DNA of 34,751 nt from Phyllobacteriaceae bacterium (lineage in GTDB: Bacteria; Pseudomonadota; Alphaproteobacteria; Rhizobiales; Devosiaceae): positions 1 to 34,751 of the forward strand of contig JAAZLP010000297.1 of assembly GCA_012799265.1 (NCBI GenBank), in the 5' to 3' direction. The position numbers and the translations under genes were made by a program. Below are positions 11,694 through 24,042 of the stretch, piece by piece. Within the stretch, counting starts at the first letter, position 1, and every line of letters starts with the position of its first letter. A model generated the notes under the pieces. It saw nothing but the letters and a program-made list of their open reading frames with translations, was not told where the DNA came from and made no database searches.

Positions 11694-12983
11694 TCAGCCG
11701 AAGTGTTCGGCACAGAGCGCCACGAAACGGGCGCCACGCTCTTCGAAGTTCTTGAATTGATTATAGGACGGGGCGCCGGGCGAGAGGATGATCGTGTCGT
11801 AACGATCCCTTTGTTCCGCCAGGGCATCAAGCGCAGCTTCGAGGTTTGGAGCCTCTAACACCTCGACGGACGGTGCAGCCTCACGGGTGGCACTGGCGAG
11901 GCGGTCACCTGTCACGGGCAGTGTGACAAGGGTGGTCACGCCGCGGGGGGCGAGCAGGGTTGCCAGTTCCGCATAGTCCTGCTGGCGCTCATGGCCGCCA
12001 GCGATGAGGGCAATGCGGCGGCCCGGATAGGCGGCGAGGGCGGCCTTGGTTGCTTCGGGCGTGGTCGAGATTGAGTCGTTGACGACGGTCACGTTGCTGA
12101 AGACATGTTCTTCAAGCCGATGCGGCAGGGGGTGGAAAGCGGCGATGCCGGCGAGAACGCCGTCCATCGTGCCACCCGTCGCCAGAGTAATCTGGGCGGC
12201 GAGATGGGCATTGTCGAGATTGTGGGCGCCGCGCAGGCGGGACTGAGCGACGGCGTTCTCGATGGCGATCGCTTCCTCGACGGTGAGATTGCGGAGGAGG
12301 CGCCGATGATCGCGCACCGCCCTGGCAACGAGGGCGTTGCCCTGGGCGGCAGCGCCGAAGGCGACGGCGAAATTGCCCTCGCGGTCCACCAGGTGAAGCT
12401 TGTCTGCATAGTAGCGGTCGACCGAGCCATGCCAGTCGACGTGTTCAGGATAGAGATTGGTGATGGCCGCGACATCGGGGAGGAAGTTCATGTCGGCGGT
12501 CTGGTAGCTCGATAGCTCGAAGATCACGACAGGGTGGCGGTCGGCGATATCGAGCGGCGCAAGGCCGACATTACCCGCCAGGCCGGCATCAATGCCGGAG
12601 CGGGTCAGCATCAGATGGGTGAGGGTGGCGGTGGTCGACTTGCCCTTGGTGCCAGTGACGGCAATGACTGTGCGGTCCTGGCGGTAGGTTGCGCCCCAGA
12701 GATTGAGGTTCGACGTCACCGGGATGCCAGCGTCGCGGGCCTGGGCGAAAATGGGTTTGTAGATCGAGACGCCGGGGCTCTTGACGATTAGGGCGAACCG
12801 GCGGGCCGCTATGGCCGCGGGGAGGTCTTCGGCAGCAATCTGCTCGGCATTGGCAATGTCTGCGGTGCCGCTGTCTACGGTGACGAAGACTTTCAGATCG
12901 GGCGCGCGCGCGGCGAGAAAGGCGCGGGTGGATTGCGCCTCCTTGCCCGCGCCATAGAGCAGGACCGGGCCGTCAAACTGCAT
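11694..12983 (-). CDS. murD2: MurD2: UDP-MurNAc-L-Ala--L-Glu ligase (MurD paralogue)
   Basis: This 429-residue Mur ligase has an N-terminal Rossmann-like part with VKSPGVSIYKP, the ATP loop GTKGKSTT at 111-118, FELSSYQ, NLYPEHVDWHGS and VNDSISTTPEATKAAL. The last two blocks depart from canonical MurD (which has DHLDRH-type and NDSKATN-type blocks) and resemble the MurD2 group described in Xanthomonas, which adds L-Glu, not D-Glu, to UDP-MurNAc-L-Ala. The ORF track extends to 13139, but that part is frame-shifted murL sequence. ATG 12983 overlaps the murL stop by 11 bases, giving tight coupling. Coupling to murL is the main reason to choose MurD2 over a second MurD. Substrate use is inferred from the family. 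Confidence 0.85.
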   Translation of the reverse strand: MQFDGPVLLYGAGKEAQSTRAFLAARAPDLKVFVTVDSGTADIANAEQIAAEDLPAAIAARRFALIVKSPGVSIYKPIFAQARDAGIPVTSNLNLWGATYRQDRTVIAVTGTKGKSTTATLTHLMLTRSGIDAGLAGNVGLAPLDIADRHPVVIFELSSYQTADMNFLPDVAAITNLYPEHVDWHGSVDRYYADKLHLVDREGNFAVAFGAAAQGNALVARAVRDHRRLLRNLTVEEAIAIENAVAQSRLRGAHNLDNAHLAAQITLATGGTMDGVLAGIAAFHPLPHRLEEHVFSNVTVVNDSISTTPEATKAALAAYPGRRIALIAGGHERQQDYAELATLLAPRGVTTLVTLPVTGDRLASATREAAPSVEVLEAPNLEAALDALAEQRDRYDTIILSPGAPSYNQFKNFEERGARFVALCAEHFG

Positions 12984-14310
12984 AGGCGGCCACCTTGGCA
13001 GCGAGGGCGGGCGGAATGTGGTGGTCATGGCTGTCGGTAAGGCATTCGGCCATGGCCAGCTGCAATTTTTCCTCGCCATATTGGGCGAAGAGGTCTGCCT
13101 TGACCGCGCTGACCACAGCGGCTTCATGCCAGTCGGCATGACGGGTCAGCGTATAGAAGCAGGCGGCGGCCTCGAGGATTTCGCCGACGCATTCCCACGG
13201 TTTTTGCCCGGCAAGCCCGGCCAGTTCGCGGAAGGAGCGCTCGTTAGCCGGTTCGTCGAGGAGGTTCTTGCCGAAAATCCTCAGCAGGCGATCCTTGGCC
13301 ATGAAGGGCGCGAAGATCAGGAAGACGAAGTGACACTTCGGGCATTCGCCGCACCAGAGGGGGCCGTCATTGCCCGTGAGGCGGAAGTTGCGGTTGCAGC
13401 TCGAGAAGACGCTGTCGAAGGTCTGGCTATGGGTGAAGAGCGAGGCAATGCGGGCCTCGGAATAGGGACGAAGCAGGGAGAAATATTTGAGCGCGCCACC
13501 GGTCGCGTTGGCGAGGGTGTCTGCGATCAGGAGTTCGAAGCCGAGGGACTTGGAATATTGGTGATTGGTCTCGCGGCCGTCGAAGACGACATTGCCTTCA
13601 CTGGCCGAGCGTTCGTTGGAGAGGACGATCTGGCTGTAATCAAAGAGCAGGGCGCAGAGCGAGGCGATCATGGAATTGATCGCCGTCGAGGGGACGTGGC
13701 CGTTGTAGAAGCCCGCTTCCTTGCCTAGGCGGATCATCTCCGGATCAAGCGTGCGGGTGACATAGAGTGGGGCTGTGCCGATCGCCTCGACCGATGTGAG
13801 GATCGGGCCCTTGGGATTGACCGCGAAGGGAGTGAAGTCGACGCCTGAATGGGTCAGCAGATCCACGCTCACGAGGGAATCCTTGCCGCCACCAATGGGC
13901 AGCAGGGTGCGGTCAGCCAAGACGACGCTCGGCTTGCGTTCGACCGTATCGGTGGGCGTGCTGAGCTGCAGCTTGCCAAAGCGGGCGAGCTCGTTGCGGG
14001 CATAGAATTCGCCGAGGCCATTTTCATAGACATCGATGACGAAGGCACGCTCGCCTGCTGTGAGCGGGATGTCGGGCGCATCGATCTGGAGCGGCGCACG
14101 CAGCTTGAAATAGCTGACGCCAAGGACGAACGCAGTCAGGCCCAGCAGCTTTTCGAATGCGGGTGAGCTTGCCGCCTGAGCATCCGTGCCAGCAGGCAGG
14201 GTCAGGACTTCAGTGAAGGCCAGATCGTTGAGGCGGTAGGGGAACCGCACCTCTCCGCTCGATGGATCAAAGGATGGGCGCTCAATGCGGAAGAATTCGG
14301 TCACGGTCAT
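12973..14310 (-). CDS. murL: MurL: UDP-MurNAc-L-Ala-L-Glu epimerase
   Basis: This 445-residue protein matches the MurL family, which inverts the terminal L-Glu of UDP-MurNAc-L-Ala-L-Glu to D-Glu in an ATP-dependent reaction and so makes free D-glutamate unnecessary. Visible features are a PP-loop-like LPIGGGKDS at about 137-145, SNERSASEGN with a following NHQYSKS, and a cysteine cluster SSCNRNF ... WCGECPKCHF (Cys304, 319, 322, 325) that may bind a metal. ATG 14310 is preferred to the ORF-track start at 14382 because conserved-looking sequence begins at MTVTEFFRIERP and the 24 extra residues look like noise. It is the first gene of the murL-murD2 pair and faces the flippase gene. Confidence 0.87.
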   Translation of the reverse strand: MTVTEFFRIERPSFDPSSGEVRFPYRLNDLAFTEVLTLPAGTDAQAASSPAFEKLLGLTAFVLGVSYFKLRAPLQIDAPDIPLTAGERAFVIDVYENGLGEFYARNELARFGKLQLSTPTDTVERKPSVVLADRTLLPIGGGKDSLVSVDLLTHSGVDFTPFAVNPKGPILTSVEAIGTAPLYVTRTLDPEMIRLGKEAGFYNGHVPSTAINSMIASLCALLFDYSQIVLSNERSASEGNVVFDGRETNHQYSKSLGFELLIADTLANATGGALKYFSLLRPYSEARIASLFTHSQTFDSVFSSCNRNFRLTGNDGPLWCGECPKCHFVFLIFAPFMAKDRLLRIFGKNLLDEPANERSFRELAGLAGQKPWECVGEILEAAACFYTLTRHADWHEAAVVSAVKADLFAQYGEEKLQLAMAECLTDSHDHHIPPALAAKVAAYAV

Positions 14311-14682: not shown

Positions 14683-16029
14683 ATGCAGCGGTGGCGATTG
14701 GGTTCGCCTGTGAGTGACTTCGGCTCTCTCCTCACCAAGCAAAGTTTTCACATCATTGCCCTTCGCCTCTTTGGTGCGGGACTGGCCCTGATCGCACAGG
14801 TTGTGGCGTCGCGCTTTATCGGCCCAGAAGAATATGGGCGGTTCGCCCTGGCTTTTGTCTGGCTGCTGCTTTTGGGCCATGTCGGCACGGCGGGAACTTC
14901 CCAACTGCTTTATCGTCACCTGGCCGAATATCTGACGACAGGGGATAAGGCCCGCGCCGCTGGTATTGTCCGGTTCGCCATGGCGGCAACCCTGGCTGTG
15001 TCGATTGCTATCGGTGTCCTCGGCATAGTTGCCGTTCAGCTTGGCGTTCTGCCGATTGGGTCGGAGCTGATCTGGCTTGTTACCCTGACCTTGATCGCGG
15101 TGCCGCTCCTGGCTTTTCAGGATTTCCTCGAGGCGATTGCGCGCGGCCTTGATCAGCCCGCAGCCGGCATCGGGCCCGCCTACACAATGCGGCACCTGTC
15201 GATCATCGTGGGCCTCGGCGCGCTGGTGCTGGTTGGGCATAGCGCGACGGCACTCACGGTTGTGGTGCTCGCGATTGTCGGCCTTATTGCCAGCATCCTG
15301 GTGCAATATTGGCTGCTAAGGCCTCATCTGGTCACCGCGATCGGATCTGCTGCTCCGGCCTTCGAGGTTAGCGCGTGGCTGAAAACGGCTGTGCCTATGG
15401 CCGGTGTTGATCTGGCTGAGGTCCTTTTCCTCAATGTCGACGTTATTCTTCTCGGCCTTCTCGTGCCGCCCGAACAGGTCGCGTTCTACTTTGCGGCGTC
15501 GCGGCTGGCACAATTCCTGGCCTATGTTCCCTATGGCGTCAGTGCCACCACAGCCCAGAAATACGCGGCGCTGAGCGCTGGCAATCGGCGTGGCGAACTG
15601 CAGGCGTTGGTCAGTCGAGCCACTGTCATGATGACCGTGCTCACTGCCGCAGGCGCGGTGACGTTGAGCGTTCTTGCGGCTCCGCTATTAGGTTTTTTTG
15701 GCCCTGAATTTCACATCGCCAGCCAGTTTGTGCCCGTCATGTGCCTTGGGATCGTTGCTGCCTGTGCGCTGGGGCCGGGGGAGGATGTGCTCAACATGCT
15801 GGGCGAAGAGCGGCTCTGCTCGATAGGCTTTATCGTTGCGCTGGCGGTAAACGTGGTCACGGCGCTCGTGCTGATCCCCGCAATGGGGCCGATGGGGGCT
15901 GCCATAGCGACGGCCCTGGGGCTCGCTGTTCGCGGCGGGGTCCTTGCCGCGATTGCCTATTGGCGCCTTGGTTTGATAATTCCCATGTTCAGCGCGCTTA
16001 TGCGTGGTCAGGCTGAGGTTGAGGCATGA
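14683..16029 (+). CDS. Wzx/MATE-like polysaccharide or lipid-linked glycan flippase
   Basis: This 448-residue, highly hydrophobic protein has about 12 to 14 predicted membrane helices. Near its start it shows RLFGAGLALIAQVVASRFIG followed by PEEYGRFAL, typical of oligosaccharide flippases of the MOP superfamily. Such proteins move undecaprenyl-linked glycans across the inner membrane for O-antigen, capsule or exopolysaccharide; the substrate here is unknown. ATG 14683 has no clear ribosome binding site. GTG 14710, which overlaps the stop of a short upstream ORF, is an alternative start that would remove nine residues before the family homology. The stop overlaps the next gene as ATGA. No glycosyltransferase or polymerase is nearby, which is unusual for a Wzx. 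Confidence 0.88.
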   Translation: MQRWRLGSPVSDFGSLLTKQSFHIIALRLFGAGLALIAQVVASRFIGPEEYGRFALAFVWLLLLGHVGTAGTSQLLYRHLAEYLTTGDKARAAGIVRFAMAATLAVSIAIGVLGIVAVQLGVLPIGSELIWLVTLTLIAVPLLAFQDFLEAIARGLDQPAAGIGPAYTMRHLSIIVGLGALVLVGHSATALTVVVLAIVGLIASILVQYWLLRPHLVTAIGSAAPAFEVSAWLKTAVPMAGVDLAEVLFLNVDVILLGLLVPPEQVAFYFAASRLAQFLAYVPYGVSATTAQKYAALSAGNRRGELQALVSRATVMMTVLTAAGAVTLSVLAAPLLGFFGPEFHIASQFVPVMCLGIVAACALGPGEDVLNMLGEERLCSIGFIVALAVNVVTALVLIPAMGPMGAAIATALGLAVRGGVLAAIAYWRLGLIIPMFSALMRGQAEVEA

Positions 16030-17258
16030 ACGGCACCTATACGCTTGAAGTCCTCAATGCCGAGACGCTGGCCACTCTGGATGCTGAAGAGTGGGATGCG
16101 CTTTCGACGTCTGCCCTGGAGGCCAATCCCTACTATGCTCGCGCCTATGTATTGGCCGGGCTGGCAACGGTGGACGCCCAAGCTGGGGTCCAGGCACTGA
16201 GCATCCGACGCAACGGCATGCTCGCCGGCCTTTTCCCGTTCAGGGTCAAGAAATGGCCGCTCAAACGGGCCGTGGCCGCGGCCAATCATTACCAGCCCAG
16301 CGGGCAGCCCCTGATCCATCGCGCCTACGCGGGCGGCGTGGTTAAGGCCTGGCTGAACGCGATCAGGGGTGGCAAAATGCCGCGGCGATGGACGTTCCGA
16401 AACATCGATCTATCGAGCCCGTTTCTCACGCTGTGCCGAGAGCATGATAATGACAACGCGTTTGAAACGGTCCCCACCGGCAGCTATCGCCGCGCTCGAC
16501 TTGATCGCCGGCCGGAAAATTTCGAGGCCCATCTCGAGACCGTTGTCTCCAAGCGCCGGGTCAAAGACATCAGGCGCACCATTCGAAGGCTGCAAGAGCT
16601 CGGTGATCTGACCTTTGAGCGGGTGCATGAGCCGGACGCTGTGGCTCAGCGTATTGAGGACTTCCTTGCCATCGAGCATGGCGGCTGGAAAGGGAAGACG
16701 GGCACGTCCTTCCTGGCTGATCCGGCTGACGCAGAATTTGCCCGAAGGGCATTTGTCTCGAAGGGGGCACTCAAGACTTCTGTCGATAGCCTCCTGCTGA
16801 ACGGCCAGCCGATCGCCGTCTCAATAAACCTGCAATCTGGGGACACGATCTTCACCCCCAAGTGCGCCTATGATGAAGCCTACCGCAAGCATTCGCCGGG
16901 ACTGGTGCTGGAATACCTCATTGTCGAGGCGTTCTATGCCAGCGAAGAAGACGTCCAAATGGATTCCTCGACGACGGTCGATGGCCATGTGGTGCAGGGC
17001 CTGTGGAACAGCGAAGTGCAGATGGGATCGGTCGTCATCGGCCCGAAGGGGCTGGGCACCAATGTTCTCGCCAGCGCCCAACGCGCAAAGGCTTTCCTAC
17101 GGGCATGGCTGAAATCGCTACTGACCTCGCCGAAGGAAGCCGGGCCGGTCAGCGCCTTGAGGAGCCTCGTGCGTCGGTTCAAGACGGCTCAGACCAATAC
17201 GGTCATCTACGCGGCGAGTTTCCCTCACGCCGCCGATCACCTGCTGCACTGGATTTGA
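16026..17258 (+). CDS. BioF2-like GNAT acyl/aminoacyl transferase (CelD/FemX-like)
   Basis: This 410-residue protein carries an Acetyltransf_6 (BioF2-like) domain in its C-terminal half. The evidence is RRVKDIRRTIRRLQELGDL, FLAIEHGGWKGKTGTSF, the strand LNGQPIAVSINLQ, and YRKHSPGLVLEYLIVEAFY followed by an acidic strand with Asp. The domain is structurally related to FemABX peptidyltransferases and to CelD/polysaccharide-linked acyltransferases. The N-terminal half looks like the paired partner domain of such proteins. It overlaps the flippase gene by four bases (ATGA), so it probably modifies the molecule that the flippase exports. The substrate is unknown. No signal peptide or membrane helix is seen, so it should act on the cytoplasmic side. 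Its end lies four bases from the converging phosphoesterase gene. Confidence 0.82.
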   Translation: MNGTYTLEVLNAETLATLDAEEWDALSTSALEANPYYARAYVLAGLATVDAQAGVQALSIRRNGMLAGLFPFRVKKWPLKRAVAAANHYQPSGQPLIHRAYAGGVVKAWLNAIRGGKMPRRWTFRNIDLSSPFLTLCREHDNDNAFETVPTGSYRRARLDRRPENFEAHLETVVSKRRVKDIRRTIRRLQELGDLTFERVHEPDAVAQRIEDFLAIEHGGWKGKTGTSFLADPADAEFARRAFVSKGALKTSVDSLLLNGQPIAVSINLQSGDTIFTPKCAYDEAYRKHSPGLVLEYLIVEAFYASEEDVQMDSSTTVDGHVVQGLWNSEVQMGSVVIGPKGLGTNVLASAQRAKAFLRAWLKSLLTSPKEAGPVSALRSLVRRFKTAQTNTVIYAASFPHAADHLLHWI

Positions 17259-17262
17259 TGGA

Positions 17263-18153
17263 TCAGTAGATGCGCATCTGCATGCGCATGACGATTTCGC
17301 TGCCAAGGCGTTGGAAGCCGAATTCGCGCATGACGCATTCCCAGCCGTCACCGGACTTCTCGATGCGGAAAAGGTTGTAGCGGGCCGGATCGTCCAGCGT
17401 GCCGCCCTGGGCCGCGCTGGCGGCGGCGACGCCGATCACCGGAACTTCGTGATTCTTGCCGGGAATGTGGTGGATGGACGAGCGATGCGTATGGCCGTGC
17501 AGGATCAGCTCGGCGCCGTTGTCGGCAATGACCTGACGGAAAATGCGGTGGCCCTTGAGGCCGAACGAGGGATGCTGCAGTTCCGCGTTTGGCGGGTGAT
17601 GGATCAGCACCACGCGGAAATAGCCGGCGTCACCGAGAATCTTGAGAATGCGGGCGAGGCGGCTGGCCTGCTTTTCCTCAAAGCGGCCGATGGCCATGAA
17701 GGGCGGAGTTGGTACGGCGCTGGAGCAGGAGACGATGGCGACTTCGCCGACGCGACGCACAAAGGGGAAGGGCTGGCCTTCGATGGTTTCGCCGGTGAGG
17801 TACTTGCCCCAGAGATTCTGCGCATTTTCCAGGGCACCGGGCACATAGGCGTCGTGATTGCCAGGGCAGACGGCGACGCGTTCGCTATCGCCAAGATTTT
17901 CCAGCCATTTGCCGGCGCGTTCGACTTCGGAGTCCAGCGCCAGATTGGTGAGATCACCAGTGACGGCGGTAAAGTCGGCATTCTGGGCCTGCATATGCGC
18001 AACGAGGCTCGCCAGGGTGCCGACATTCATCTCGCCATGGCGCTTCAGCTTCCAATTGAGAAAGCCAGTGATGCGCTTGCCGACCAGATCGCTCAGCCCA
18101 ACCTGGGGCAGGGGCGAGAGATGGATGTCGGAGATGTGCGCGAGAGTAATCAT
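17263..18153 (-). CDS. Calcineurin-like metallophosphoesterase (CpdA-like)
   Basis: This 296-residue protein has all five metallophosphoesterase blocks in order: ISDIHLS near residue 9, VTGDLTN, CPGNHDAY, LIHHPPN and LHGHTHRSS. These provide the two-metal site for phosphoester hydrolysis. The overall type resembles class III cyclic nucleotide phosphodiesterases such as CpdA, but the physiological substrate cannot be fixed. It seems cytoplasmic, without signal peptide. It stands alone on the minus strand and faces the Nudix gene across about 113 bases. Confidence 0.9.
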   Translation of the reverse strand: MITLAHISDIHLSPLPQVGLSDLVGKRITGFLNWKLKRHGEMNVGTLASLVAHMQAQNADFTAVTGDLTNLALDSEVERAGKWLENLGDSERVAVCPGNHDAYVPGALENAQNLWGKYLTGETIEGQPFPFVRRVGEVAIVSCSSAVPTPPFMAIGRFEEKQASRLARILKILGDAGYFRVVLIHHPPNAELQHPSFGLKGHRIFRQVIADNGAELILHGHTHRSSIHHIPGKNHEVPVIGVAAASAAQGGTLDDPARYNLFRIEKSGDGWECVMREFGFQRLGSEIVMRMQMRIY

Positions 18154-20752: not shown

Positions 20753-21379
20753 TTGTCTATTGATGACGACATTGCCGAAAGGCTGAGGACGCGGCTCTTG
20801 CAGCAGGCGCCCCAGAATACGACCATTGAAACGCTGGTCCCCGATTGGGCGCCGGAGAAGCCGTTCGAGCGGCCGCCTGTGCCCGCCGCAGTCCTTATTG
20901 CGCTTGTGCGCCGGCCCGAAGGGCACACGGTGCTCTATACGGAGCGATCTCCCGACCTGCGTGCCCATTCGGGGCAGGTGGCTTTCCCTGGTGGCAAGAT
21001 CGACCGCGAGGATGCCAGTATCGCTGCTGCGGCGCTGCGCGAGGCCAATGAAGAGGTTGGCATGCTGGCAGAGGATGCGACGATCCTCGGCTATATGGAG
21101 AGCTATTACACCGGCACCAACTACCTCATTACCCCTGTCGTGGCCGAGGTGACGCCGAGTGGCCCCTTCGTGCCCAATCCCGGGGAAGTGCATTCGGTGT
21201 TTGAGGTGCCGCTCAGCCGCATTCTCGATGCGGGGAGCTACGGTCGTTTCCGCGTCAAGCGGGCAGGGCAGGAGCATTCGACCTGGCAGATCGACCATGA
21301 CGGTCACATGATCTGGGGCATTACCGCCAATCTGACGCGCAAATTCCGGGATCTGGCGACCGACGAGGTGGCGGCGTGA
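20753..21379 (+). CDS. Nudix hydrolase, CoA pyrophosphatase (NudL)-like
   Basis: The product of about 208 residues has the CoA-type signature upstream of the Nudix box, YTERSPDLRAHSGQVAFPGG, and then the box itself (GGKIDREDASIAAAALRE, ANEEVGM). The combination points to hydrolysis of CoA or its derivatives to phosphopantetheine and 3',5'-ADP. The start is unclear: TTG 20753 has AGGG at a suitable distance, whereas GTG 20738 (ORF track) adds five residues but lacks a ribosome binding site. The stop overlaps the GTG of the CCA-transferase gene (GTGA). This Nudix-CCA transferase pairing is common in alphaproteobacteria. Confidence 0.9.
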   Translation: MSIDDDIAERLRTRLLQQAPQNTTIETLVPDWAPEKPFERPPVPAAVLIALVRRPEGHTVLYTERSPDLRAHSGQVAFPGGKIDREDASIAAAALREANEEVGMLAEDATILGYMESYYTGTNYLITPVVAEVTPSGPFVPNPGEVHSVFEVPLSRILDAGSYGRFRVKRAGQEHSTWQIDHDGHMIWGITANLTRKFRDLATDEVAA

Positions 21380-22545
21380 TCCCTCAGCGCCTGGAAAAGC
21401 TCGAATGGCTGGAGCGGACGGCGGTCCAGACTATCTTTGCGGCATTGGGTGGGGATGACGGCAAGACGCGGGCCGTGGGCGGGATCGTTCGGGACAGTCT
21501 CATCGGGCGGGTGCGCGACAGTAACGACATCGACATGGCGACGGAGCTGTTGCCGGTCGCTGTGATGCAGAAGGCCAAGGCGGCGGGGATCGCCACTTAT
21601 CCGACAGGGATTGATCATGGGACGGTGACGCTGCGGCTCGATGAGACCAGTGTCGAGGTGACGACGCTGCGCCAGGATGTCGAGACGGACGGTCGCCATG
21701 CGCAGGTGCGATTTGGCACCGACTGGACCATGGATGCGCAGCGGCGCGATTTTACCATCAATGCACTCTATTGCGGGCCGGATGGTGCGCTGTTCGATCC
21801 CCTCGGGGGCGCAGGTGACCTGATCAATGGGCGCGTCCGCTTCATCGGCGATGCGGGCCAGCGGATCGCCGAGGATGGGTTGCGGGTTTATCGTTTCTTC
21901 CGCTTTTCCGCGAGCCACGGCAATCAGGTTTTCGATCCTGAAGGACTGGCGGCCTGCCGCGATGCCGCCGATGAGCTTGATCACATTTCGCGCGAGCGGG
22001 TCGGGGCCGAGATGGTGCGCATGCTGGCGCTGCCCCTCGTGGCACGCACGCTGGCTATAATGGACGGTCTGGGTCTTGTGCGCATGGAGCGCGTTTCGGT
22101 TGCAGCCCTTGAGCGCTACGAGGCCCTGGGGGGAATGGGTGTCGAGGCGCGGATGGCCTTGCTCGGCGGAGACGTGGGGCGGCTGCGTTCGGAATGGCGC
22201 CTGAGCAATGCCATGGGCAATCGGGTAGAACGGATTACTGCTGCTTCTGACCTGATTGCGCGCGGTGATGTCGCCTGGGCGGCCTATCGGTTTGGCGAGG
22301 AGGCCGTCGAGGGCCTGGCCGTTACGGCTGCGCGGGAAGACTGGCAGCGCGATCGACTGATGGAGACCGCGCGCGATCTGGGACGGCTTCCCGTGGCACC
22401 GCTCCCGGTCAATGGGCAGGATCTCACTGAGCGCGGGATGAAGCCGGGGCCGGAAATGGGTTCGGCGCTGGCGATGATGGAGCGGGCCTGGGTGGAGAGC
22501 GGTTTTCTCGCCAGCCGGGAAGAACTGCTGGCCCAGTTGTTCTAG
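21376..22545 (+). CDS. cca: CCA tRNA nucleotidyltransferase
   Basis: This 389-residue enzyme builds or repairs the 3'-CCA end of tRNAs using CTP and ATP. The polymerase beta-like head shows GGIVRDSLIG at 35-44 and the catalytic DID at 51-53, then TDWTMDAQRRDFTINALY and the nucleotide-choosing GQRIAEDGLRVYRFFRFSA. The C-terminal part is helical and lacks an HD phosphohydrolase domain, as in other alphaproteobacterial forms. Poly(A) polymerase I is related, but motif details and the missing basic tail favour CCA addition. Start is GTG 21376, overlapping the Nudix stop, so translation is coupled. A hairpin follows the stop directly. Confidence 0.92.
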   Translation: MIPQRLEKLEWLERTAVQTIFAALGGDDGKTRAVGGIVRDSLIGRVRDSNDIDMATELLPVAVMQKAKAAGIATYPTGIDHGTVTLRLDETSVEVTTLRQDVETDGRHAQVRFGTDWTMDAQRRDFTINALYCGPDGALFDPLGGAGDLINGRVRFIGDAGQRIAEDGLRVYRFFRFSASHGNQVFDPEGLAACRDAADELDHISRERVGAEMVRMLALPLVARTLAIMDGLGLVRMERVSVAALERYEALGGMGVEARMALLGGDVGRLRSEWRLSNAMGNRVERITAASDLIARGDVAWAAYRFGEEAVEGLAVTAAREDWQRDRLMETARDLGRLPVAPLPVNGQDLTERGMKPGPEMGSALAMMERAWVESGFLASREELLAQLF

Positions 22546-22549
22546 CAAA

Positions 22550-22571
22550 ACGGCCTCCGTCGGGAGGCCGT
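22550..22571. terminator. Hairpin between cca and the DUF1059 gene
   Basis: ACGGCCTCC-GTCG-GGAGGCCGT is a perfect 9-bp stem five bases after the cca stop. On the minus strand it is followed by TTTTG, which makes it a good terminator for the DUF1059 gene; on the plus strand it lacks a T tract. Confidence 0.75.
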
Positions 22572-22594
22572 CGCATCTAAATCTCAGCCGTCGA

Positions 22595-22780
22595 TCAGCG
22601 GGCGTCGGTGGCGTCGACGATACGCTCCTTGATGCGCTCGACCATCTCAGGGCGGATTTCGGTCTCGCCATTGAGATTTCTCATGTTTTCAACGGCCCGG
22701 CGGACAACTTCGGCCTCTGAGTCGGCCTCCACGCGCCAAGTGGAGCCAGGGATGAGGGTGCCGGAATCAAAGCGTTTCAT
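22595..22780 (-). CDS. DUF1059-like small protein (61 aa)
   Basis: The ORF track begins far upstream at 22891, but AAGGAG directly precedes three consecutive ATG codons. The third, at 22780, has ideal 6-base spacing and gives MKRFDSGTLIPGSTWRVEAD at the start. The pattern MKxFxxGxxIPG, then an SEAEVVRRAVENM helix and ETEIRPEMVERIKERI, fits the DUF1059 family of small soluble proteins of unknown function. It lies 58 bases downstream of the ATPase gene on the same strand, so it may be its last cistron. Confidence 0.75.
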   Translation of the reverse strand: MKRFDSGTLIPGSTWRVEADSEAEVVRRAVENMRNLNGETEIRPEMVERIKERIVDATDAR

Positions 22781-22838: not shown

Positions 22839-23975
22839 TCAGTCGTCCGGAAAAATTCCGATGTCTGACAGTCCCTCAAGCCACGTCCCACCGTCGCGAC
22901 GGATCACTGTGCGTGGGACAATGCCGGTGGCATTGGCGATGGCGTCTGCGAGAGCCGTAGAATGGGTGACGACCCAGACCTGCGTGCGCTCTGCGGCTCG
23001 GGCAATGGCGCCAGCCAGAGCGGGCAGGAGATTAGGATGCAGGCTTGCCTCGGGTTCGTTGAGCGCGATGAAGGGCGGCAGGCGGTAGGCAAAGAGGGCG
23101 CCGAGCAGCGCCAGGAACTGCAGCGTCCCATCCGAGAGCTCAGCCGGCCCGAAGGGACGGTGCGGCATATCGGGGAAGATCGTGGAGAAGCTGGCATCTT
23201 TCCCGGGTGGGGGGATGTCAAGTCGCGCCCCCGGGAATGCCTGATCGATGGCATGGGTGAGGTCCACAACATCCCCACGTATGTGTTTTAATGTCGCCAG
23301 CACCGCGCCAAGATTGCCACCATCGGCATCCAGCATGGGCGCTGTCACGGCAAGGGACGGCTGGCGCAGGGGCGAAGCCGCGTCGGTGCGGAAGCCGTGG
23401 TAGAAGCGCCAATTGCCCAAGAGGTGTCGGATGGCATCGAGCTCAGGCAGTGTCCCGCGCAGCGCTGAGAGGGCGGTTTCACTGGCGAGGAGCGGCTGGT
23501 CGAGTTGGCGCATACGACCGGTGTCATCCCGATACCAGGCGGCAGGTCCCTTACGGTCGAGAAGGGTAATCGTGCGTCGTCCGGGGAGAAAAAGGCTCTC
23601 GGCCTTGATCTGCGGCTCTTCAGAGAACACCGCCTCGTAGCGGCTATCGCCGAATCCGATTTCGACGGCATAGCGCGGCAGGAACGCTGCCTCCTCGTCG
23701 CCGGGGAGAATGGTATCGAGTCCAACCTCAAGGAATATGCGGGGTGGTTCGGTGGTCCGTCGTGGTCCAGCCCAGATGGCTGAGGCGAGGCCGCCTTCAC
23801 GCGCCAGGGCCATGGTCAGGTCACCGGTCGCGGCAGCGCGCACCAGTTCGAGGCCACGATAGAGATTGGTTTTGCCGACGCCATTGCCACCGACCAGTAC
23901 GGTGAGCTGCTTCAAGGGAAAGCGGATGGAGCGGACCGAGCGATAGCCAGTGATGGAGAGATCGGCGAGGGACAT
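22839..23975 (-). CDS. AAA family ATPase (COG4637-type, RecF/SMC-like)
   Basis: This 378-residue protein has an ABC/SMC-type ATPase fold: ITGYRSVRSIRFPL at the start, Walker A GGNGVGKTN at 29-37, a signature-like ELSDGTLQFLALLGAL, Walker B region FIALNEPEASLHP, and a switch VVTHSTALADAI. At the Walker B position an Asn stands where Asp is usual (LNEPE in place of DEPE); I believe related proteins can show this, but I cannot check. The ORF track starts at GTG 24026, but homology-like sequence begins at ATG 23975. There is no partner nuclease or defence gene nearby, so the function is unknown. Confidence 0.82.
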   Translation of the reverse strand: MSLADLSITGYRSVRSIRFPLKQLTVLVGGNGVGKTNLYRGLELVRAAATGDLTMALAREGGLASAIWAGPRRTTEPPRIFLEVGLDTILPGDEEAAFLPRYAVEIGFGDSRYEAVFSEEPQIKAESLFLPGRRTITLLDRKGPAAWYRDDTGRMRQLDQPLLASETALSALRGTLPELDAIRHLLGNWRFYHGFRTDAASPLRQPSLAVTAPMLDADGGNLGAVLATLKHIRGDVVDLTHAIDQAFPGARLDIPPPGKDASFSTIFPDMPHRPFGPAELSDGTLQFLALLGALFAYRLPPFIALNEPEASLHPNLLPALAGAIARAAERTQVWVVTHSTALADAIANATGIVPRTVIRRDGGTWLEGLSDIGIFPDD

Positions 23976-24042
23976 TCCCGAGATGTGCCACAAGGCAGTC
24001 TCGGGATCGACCCCCGCCGGTATCACTTCAGGCGGTAGAGCC

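Follow-up and report, generated by a model that had tools for sequence, protein, structure and literature searches.

The closest described system is that of Xanthomonas oryzae, in which MurL and MurD2 (XOO_1319/XOO_1320; Feng et al. 2017, as reviewed in PMC8788868) are encoded by adjacent genes in a genome that has no murI. MurD2 ligates L-Glu to the cell-wall precursor, and MurL then epimerises it there to D-Glu, in one direction only, converting ATP to AMP; both reactions have been established with enzymes from Xanthomonas and actinobacteria (PMC8788868, PMC5808125). The specificity for L-Glu is set by Glu197 and Arg358 of X. oryzae MurD2: when both are swapped to the MurD residues, the enzyme uses D-Glu (PMC8788868). 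MurL has been described in reviews as free of known conserved domains, and a carboxyl-adenylate has been proposed (PMC8788868, PMC5808125). On the canonical route, instead, MurD uses free D-Glu, murD lies in the dcw cluster, and MurI is needed. A 2021 review names Devosia, Pelagibacterium, and Parvularcula among the bearers of MurD2/MurL (PMC8788868). Thus, since Devosia is already in the published list, the pathway reported here is not new in kind. The preliminary description of this DNA, which had pointed to the pair as an alphaproteobacterial case, was correct that the pair is real, but its noteworthiness is weakened by that list. The Devosia pathway being already published, what we add is a fold assignment for MurL and the presence of MurL, and of MurL-MurD2 fusions, in Patescibacteria.

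The window (the whole stretch of DNA analysed, 34,751 nucleotides) is contig C145 of a Devosia metagenome-assembled genome (MAG) of 3.19 Mb in 504 contigs, 85.8% complete. The positions of the two genes and of the other features considered are reported in Table 1. Two longer mechanical open reading frames, with starts at 13139 and 14382, were rejected as over-extensions. The overlap of the two genes had been given as 11 bases, and indeed the junction, CCTATGCAGTTTGACGG, contains the start codon of murD2 as well as the stop codon of murL, with an overlap of exactly 11 bp. The same overlap occurs in 82/85 Devosiaceae loci, and so it is not due to chance; it is typical of Devosiaceae, unlike the X. 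oryzae pair. Shortly before the ATG of murD2, the murL sequence contains a stretch AAGGTGG, which is a possible ribosome-binding site for murD2 and, with the overlap, suggests translational coupling of the two genes. All the motifs previously quoted were found in the sequence: GTKGKSTT, NLYPEHVDWHGS, and VNDSISTTPE in the ligase, GGGKDS and WCGECPKC in the second protein.

Table 1. Positions of the features considered (window coordinates for genes, residue numbers for protein features, locus coordinates where a locus is named)
Feature	Position	Strand	Details
murL	12973..14310	-	ATG at 14310, stop at 12973; 445 aa
murD2	11694..12983	-	ATG at 12983, stop at 11694; 429 aa
murL 3' end / murD2 5' end overlap	12973..12983	-	11 bp, from sequence
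MurL PP-loop	aa 140-145		GGGKDS
MurL cysteine cluster	C305, C320, C323, C326
MurL invariant cysteine	C374
MurD2 lysine	K113		GTKGKS
MurD2 glutamate	E180		NLYPEH
MurD2 isoleucine	I305		NDSIS
MurD2 arginine	R333		GGHER
MurD2 proline	P405		SPGAPS
Transporter, GNAT/FemAB-like protein, and metallophosphoesterase	14683-18153		upstream of murL
AAA_21 family ATPase	22839-24026	-	PF13304, AbiEii-like
Protein adjoining the ATPase	21304-22671		455 aa
Divergent MurI-like protein, Devosiaceae genome G407	L229:851-1672	-	113 bits

The identification of the second protein as MurL was borne out by the NCBIfam MurL model NF041275 (E=2.6e-117, 392 bits, 438/447 positions, model positions 8-445). The equivalog cut-off of this model, 700 bits, is tuned on Xanthomonadales, and the window MurL stays below it, as do all 57 Devosiaceae matches and all 13 matches of the class-wide sample; Devosia MurL is about 40% identical to Xanthomonadales MurL. 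The window protein is 89% identical to the MurL of Devosia elaeis, and almost all of its roughly fifty best named matches come from Devosia. A Pfam search of the protein gave no match to a MurL family, and a PDB sequence search with the single protein returned nothing useful. The ligase scored 270.6 bits against the murD model TIGR01087 (cut-off 212).

We then compared 175 MurL-linked ligases with 30 canonical alphaproteobacterial MurD. In the window ligase, E180 and R333 stand at the positions of X. oryzae E197 and R358, with Glu and Arg both kept as in the X. oryzae enzyme, while P405 and I305 stand at the positions of A414 and K319 of E. coli MurD. In place of these four residues (E/R/P/I), canonical MurD has D182/K348/A414/K319 (E. 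coli mature numbering). The MurD2 residues were present in 164, 172, 167, and 165 of the 175 MurL-linked ligases, respectively, whereas D/K/A/K were found at the same positions in 30, 30, 29, and 30 of the 30 canonical proteins. Moreover, the K of GTKGKS was conserved in 175/175 MurD2, against an N (GTNGKS) in 30/30 canonical MurD. In a quick tree with SH-aLRT support and no bootstrap, the window ligase fell inside MurD2, which was split from MurD by a branch of SH-aLRT 100 whether E. coli MurD was included or not. The match to Xanthomonas MurD2 put forward in the preliminary description is thus sustained by residues and tree alike, and the grouping with canonical MurD, which it had named as the outcome that would contradict it, was not observed. 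These data support the assignment of the ligase to the MurD2 type, with a predicted use of L-Glu.

A question already raised about this genome was whether the usual MurI and a canonical MurD are still present. Presence and absence across genomes were called by family (profile) searches. No MurI over the family cut-off was found in the 85.8% complete MAG, and the window ligase was the only MurD over cut-off. The dcw cluster lies on one contig, with murE, murF, mraY, ftsW, murG, murC, and ddl in order; murD is absent from it, and the mraY-ftsW gap, the usual place of murD, is only 158 bp long. For comparison, murD lies between mraY and ftsW in E. coli and just downstream of mraY in a relative of the same order (L237). 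In four other Devosiaceae genomes this place is also without murD. A 1.4-kb mraY-ftsW gap in another Devosiaceae genome (G444) was considered as a site for a murD remnant, but by inspection its open reading frame looks like a receptor-type ligand-binding protein.

Given the completeness of the MAG, the absence of murI from one genome is not proof, and it is the absence across the family that carries the point. MurL was found in 57/61 Devosiaceae genomes searched and MurI over cut-off in 0/61, single-contig genomes included; the Devosiaceae MurD matches over cut-off adjoin MurL. The four genomes without a MurL match are drafts of at least 260 contigs, one of which (G413) still has MurD2. The pattern was reversed in the relatives sampled from this order (MurL 0/5, MurI 5/5). 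In the class-wide sample, MurI was found in 0/13 genomes with MurL vs 86/374 others (P=0.036, without phylogenetic correction), a difference that is weak by itself because this model finds no MurI in many of the sampled alphaproteobacterial genomes. In Devosia and almost all of the Devosiaceae sampled, murL and murD2 appear to have replaced murI and murD, a clean swap within one order, which answers the question above.

An alternative reading takes the ligase for an ordinary D-Glu MurD whose gene has left the dcw cluster and which is supplied by an Asp/Glu racemase paralogue, while the MurL-like protein does something else. Two PF01177 racemases are present in the genome, and in Vibrio fischeri the aspartate racemase RacD, when overexpressed, can feed D-Glu to peptidoglycan (PMC12502697). 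Both paralogues, however, match the aspartate/glutamate models PRK10200 and TIGR00035 and amino acid racemase models rather than MurI, and at E<=0.001 the MurI model, which is not a full test for such paralogues, detects no such racemase in several near-complete MurL-bearing Devosiaceae. The family search yielded no accepted D-amino-acid transaminase in this genome: the one candidate (TIGR01121, 104.8 bits) is a PLP transaminase corresponding to the branched-chain enzyme IlvE. Considering also the L-Glu residues of the ligase and its grouping with MurD2, we regard a relocated MurD as very improbable, the two racemases remaining a minor caveat as a source of D-Glu. It is scarcely credible that MurL-MurD2 coexists with a canonical pathway missing from the MAG by incomplete assembly, as completeness and the 504 contigs might allow, against a contiguous dcw cluster without murD, a family in which no genome has MurI over cut-off and the MurD matches over cut-off adjoin MurL, and a single divergent MurI-like protein in which both catalytic Cys are replaced by Ser. 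We are therefore highly confident that the pair constitutes the MurD2-MurL pathway and probably the only route of this organism to D-Glu in peptidoglycan, its activity in Devosia being inferred.

The MurI-like protein just mentioned, from Devosiaceae genome G407 (Table 1), scores below the MurI cut-off, and its serines lie in the motifs SNAPS and SSTHLP. Elsewhere among the alphaproteobacteria, a partial and distant MurL-like protein of about 500 aa (L230/L024, genome G071) has no MurD2 nearby, and the best MurD match of that genome is strong (376.9 bits); the protein is perhaps a different PP-loop enzyme. Four near-complete alphaproteobacterial genomes of 0.9 Mb from family f61 (G057, G157, G304, and G365) gave no match whatever with the MurD model, by which other Mur ligases are as a rule detected as well, and this suggests a loss of peptidoglycan synthesis.

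The structure of MurL was modelled with AlphaFold2 (86 MurL sequences; mean pLDDT 96.9, pTM 0.95). The best PDB matches of the model were QatC with ATP (E=1.3e-5), QueC (5.9e-5 and 4.2e-4), and Cap9 (1.1e-3), with a Foldseek probability of 1.00 for QatC and QueC; the match spans the PP-loop part and not the whole of MurL, with a TM-score of 0.63-0.66 by QueC length. Viral QueC proteins were the top matches in a library of viral structures, and the MurL profile matched the PP-loop of TtuA (E=1.4e-4). The GGGKDS motif is invariant or nearly so in the 86 sequences, and the cysteine pattern SSCN...WCGECPKC resembles TCY...CGHCAAC of QueC. At the sequence level, Pfam QueC matched 3/86 members (best E=2.9e-4), and hhalign of E. 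coli QueC alone against the MurL profile gave a probability of 3.5%, with only the Cys motif aligned. MurL is thus predicted to have a PP-loop fold of the QueC/QatC kind, a link carried mainly by the fold, as the sequence relation to QueC is weak. With QueC, QatC, and Cap9 (7-cyano-7-deazaguanine synthase and its defence relatives) MurL shares the predicted PP-loop fold, GGGKDS, and a C-x(n)-CGxCxxC cluster; it differs from them in an identity of only about 15%, in extra N- and C-terminal parts, and in acting as an epimerase, without an amide or nitrile product. In the open-access literature, to which our search was limited (subscription papers lay outside it), we found no prior statement tying MurL to QueC or to the PP-loop.

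PP-loop enzymes of the QueC kind adenylate their substrate and release PPi, which agrees with the consumption of ATP and the release of AMP by MurL. The modelled fold and the cysteine cluster would likewise fit an adenylation of the Glu alpha-carboxylate. We propose that MurL belongs with the QueC-like PP-loop ATP pyrophosphatases, that its GGGKDS would bind ATP, and that it could adenylate the alpha-carboxylate of the terminal Glu with release of PPi. The activated C-alpha proton would be removed and returned on the opposite face, with the invariant C374, H205, or H250 as candidate acid/base residues, and hydrolysis of the acyl-adenylate to AMP would drive the epimerisation one way. The cluster of four cysteines probably binds zinc in a structural role, as in QueC. 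These chemical steps are inferred, but the fold makes for a testable mechanism of an epimerase that reviews describe without known domains. The assignment is also useful to the pursuit of MurL/MurD2 as a target for narrow-spectrum antibiotics.

Matches to the MurL family were also found in 62/380 sampled genomes of Patescibacteria (the phylum of G447 and of L115, a Zambryskibacteria MAG), a group missing from the published MurD2/MurL list, and in these too MurL and MurD2 are adjacent. In ten genomes the two are joined in one uninterrupted frame of 774-907 aa, with MurL preceding MurD2 (L132, L211, L212, L213, L214, L215, L216, L217, L218, and L219); an eleventh fusion (L220) is cut by the contig end. 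The distribution of fused and separate states on the MurD2 tree needs four changes. MurI had no match in seven MurL-bearing Patescibacteria genomes, and within the same limits of the literature search we found no prior statement on glutamate racemase in CPR. MAG binning is a caveat, but contamination is unlikely to be the full explanation because of the number of independent genomes. The fusions suggest a greater age or mobility of the route than its published range would imply. All in all, we consider it likely that MurL is an adenylating enzyme of the QueC family turned epimerase and that MurD2-MurL, extending beyond a few genera, recurs as a cell-wall route in Patescibacteria, where the two enzymes are repeatedly fused. 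The finding in Devosia itself is of moderate interest; what most deserves to be followed is the fold of MurL, together with the fusions in Patescibacteria.

As regards the other genes in the window, the region upstream of murL encodes a flippase-like polysaccharide transporter (PF01943) and, in a gene that overlaps the transporter gene by 4 bp, a GNAT/FemAB-like protein; a metallophosphoesterase comes next. The GNAT/FemAB-like protein matches the Brucella effector model BspF far below its cut-off, and these are probably ordinary envelope genes. Further along the window, the AAA_21 family ATPase and its 455-aa neighbour form a possible defence-related pair.
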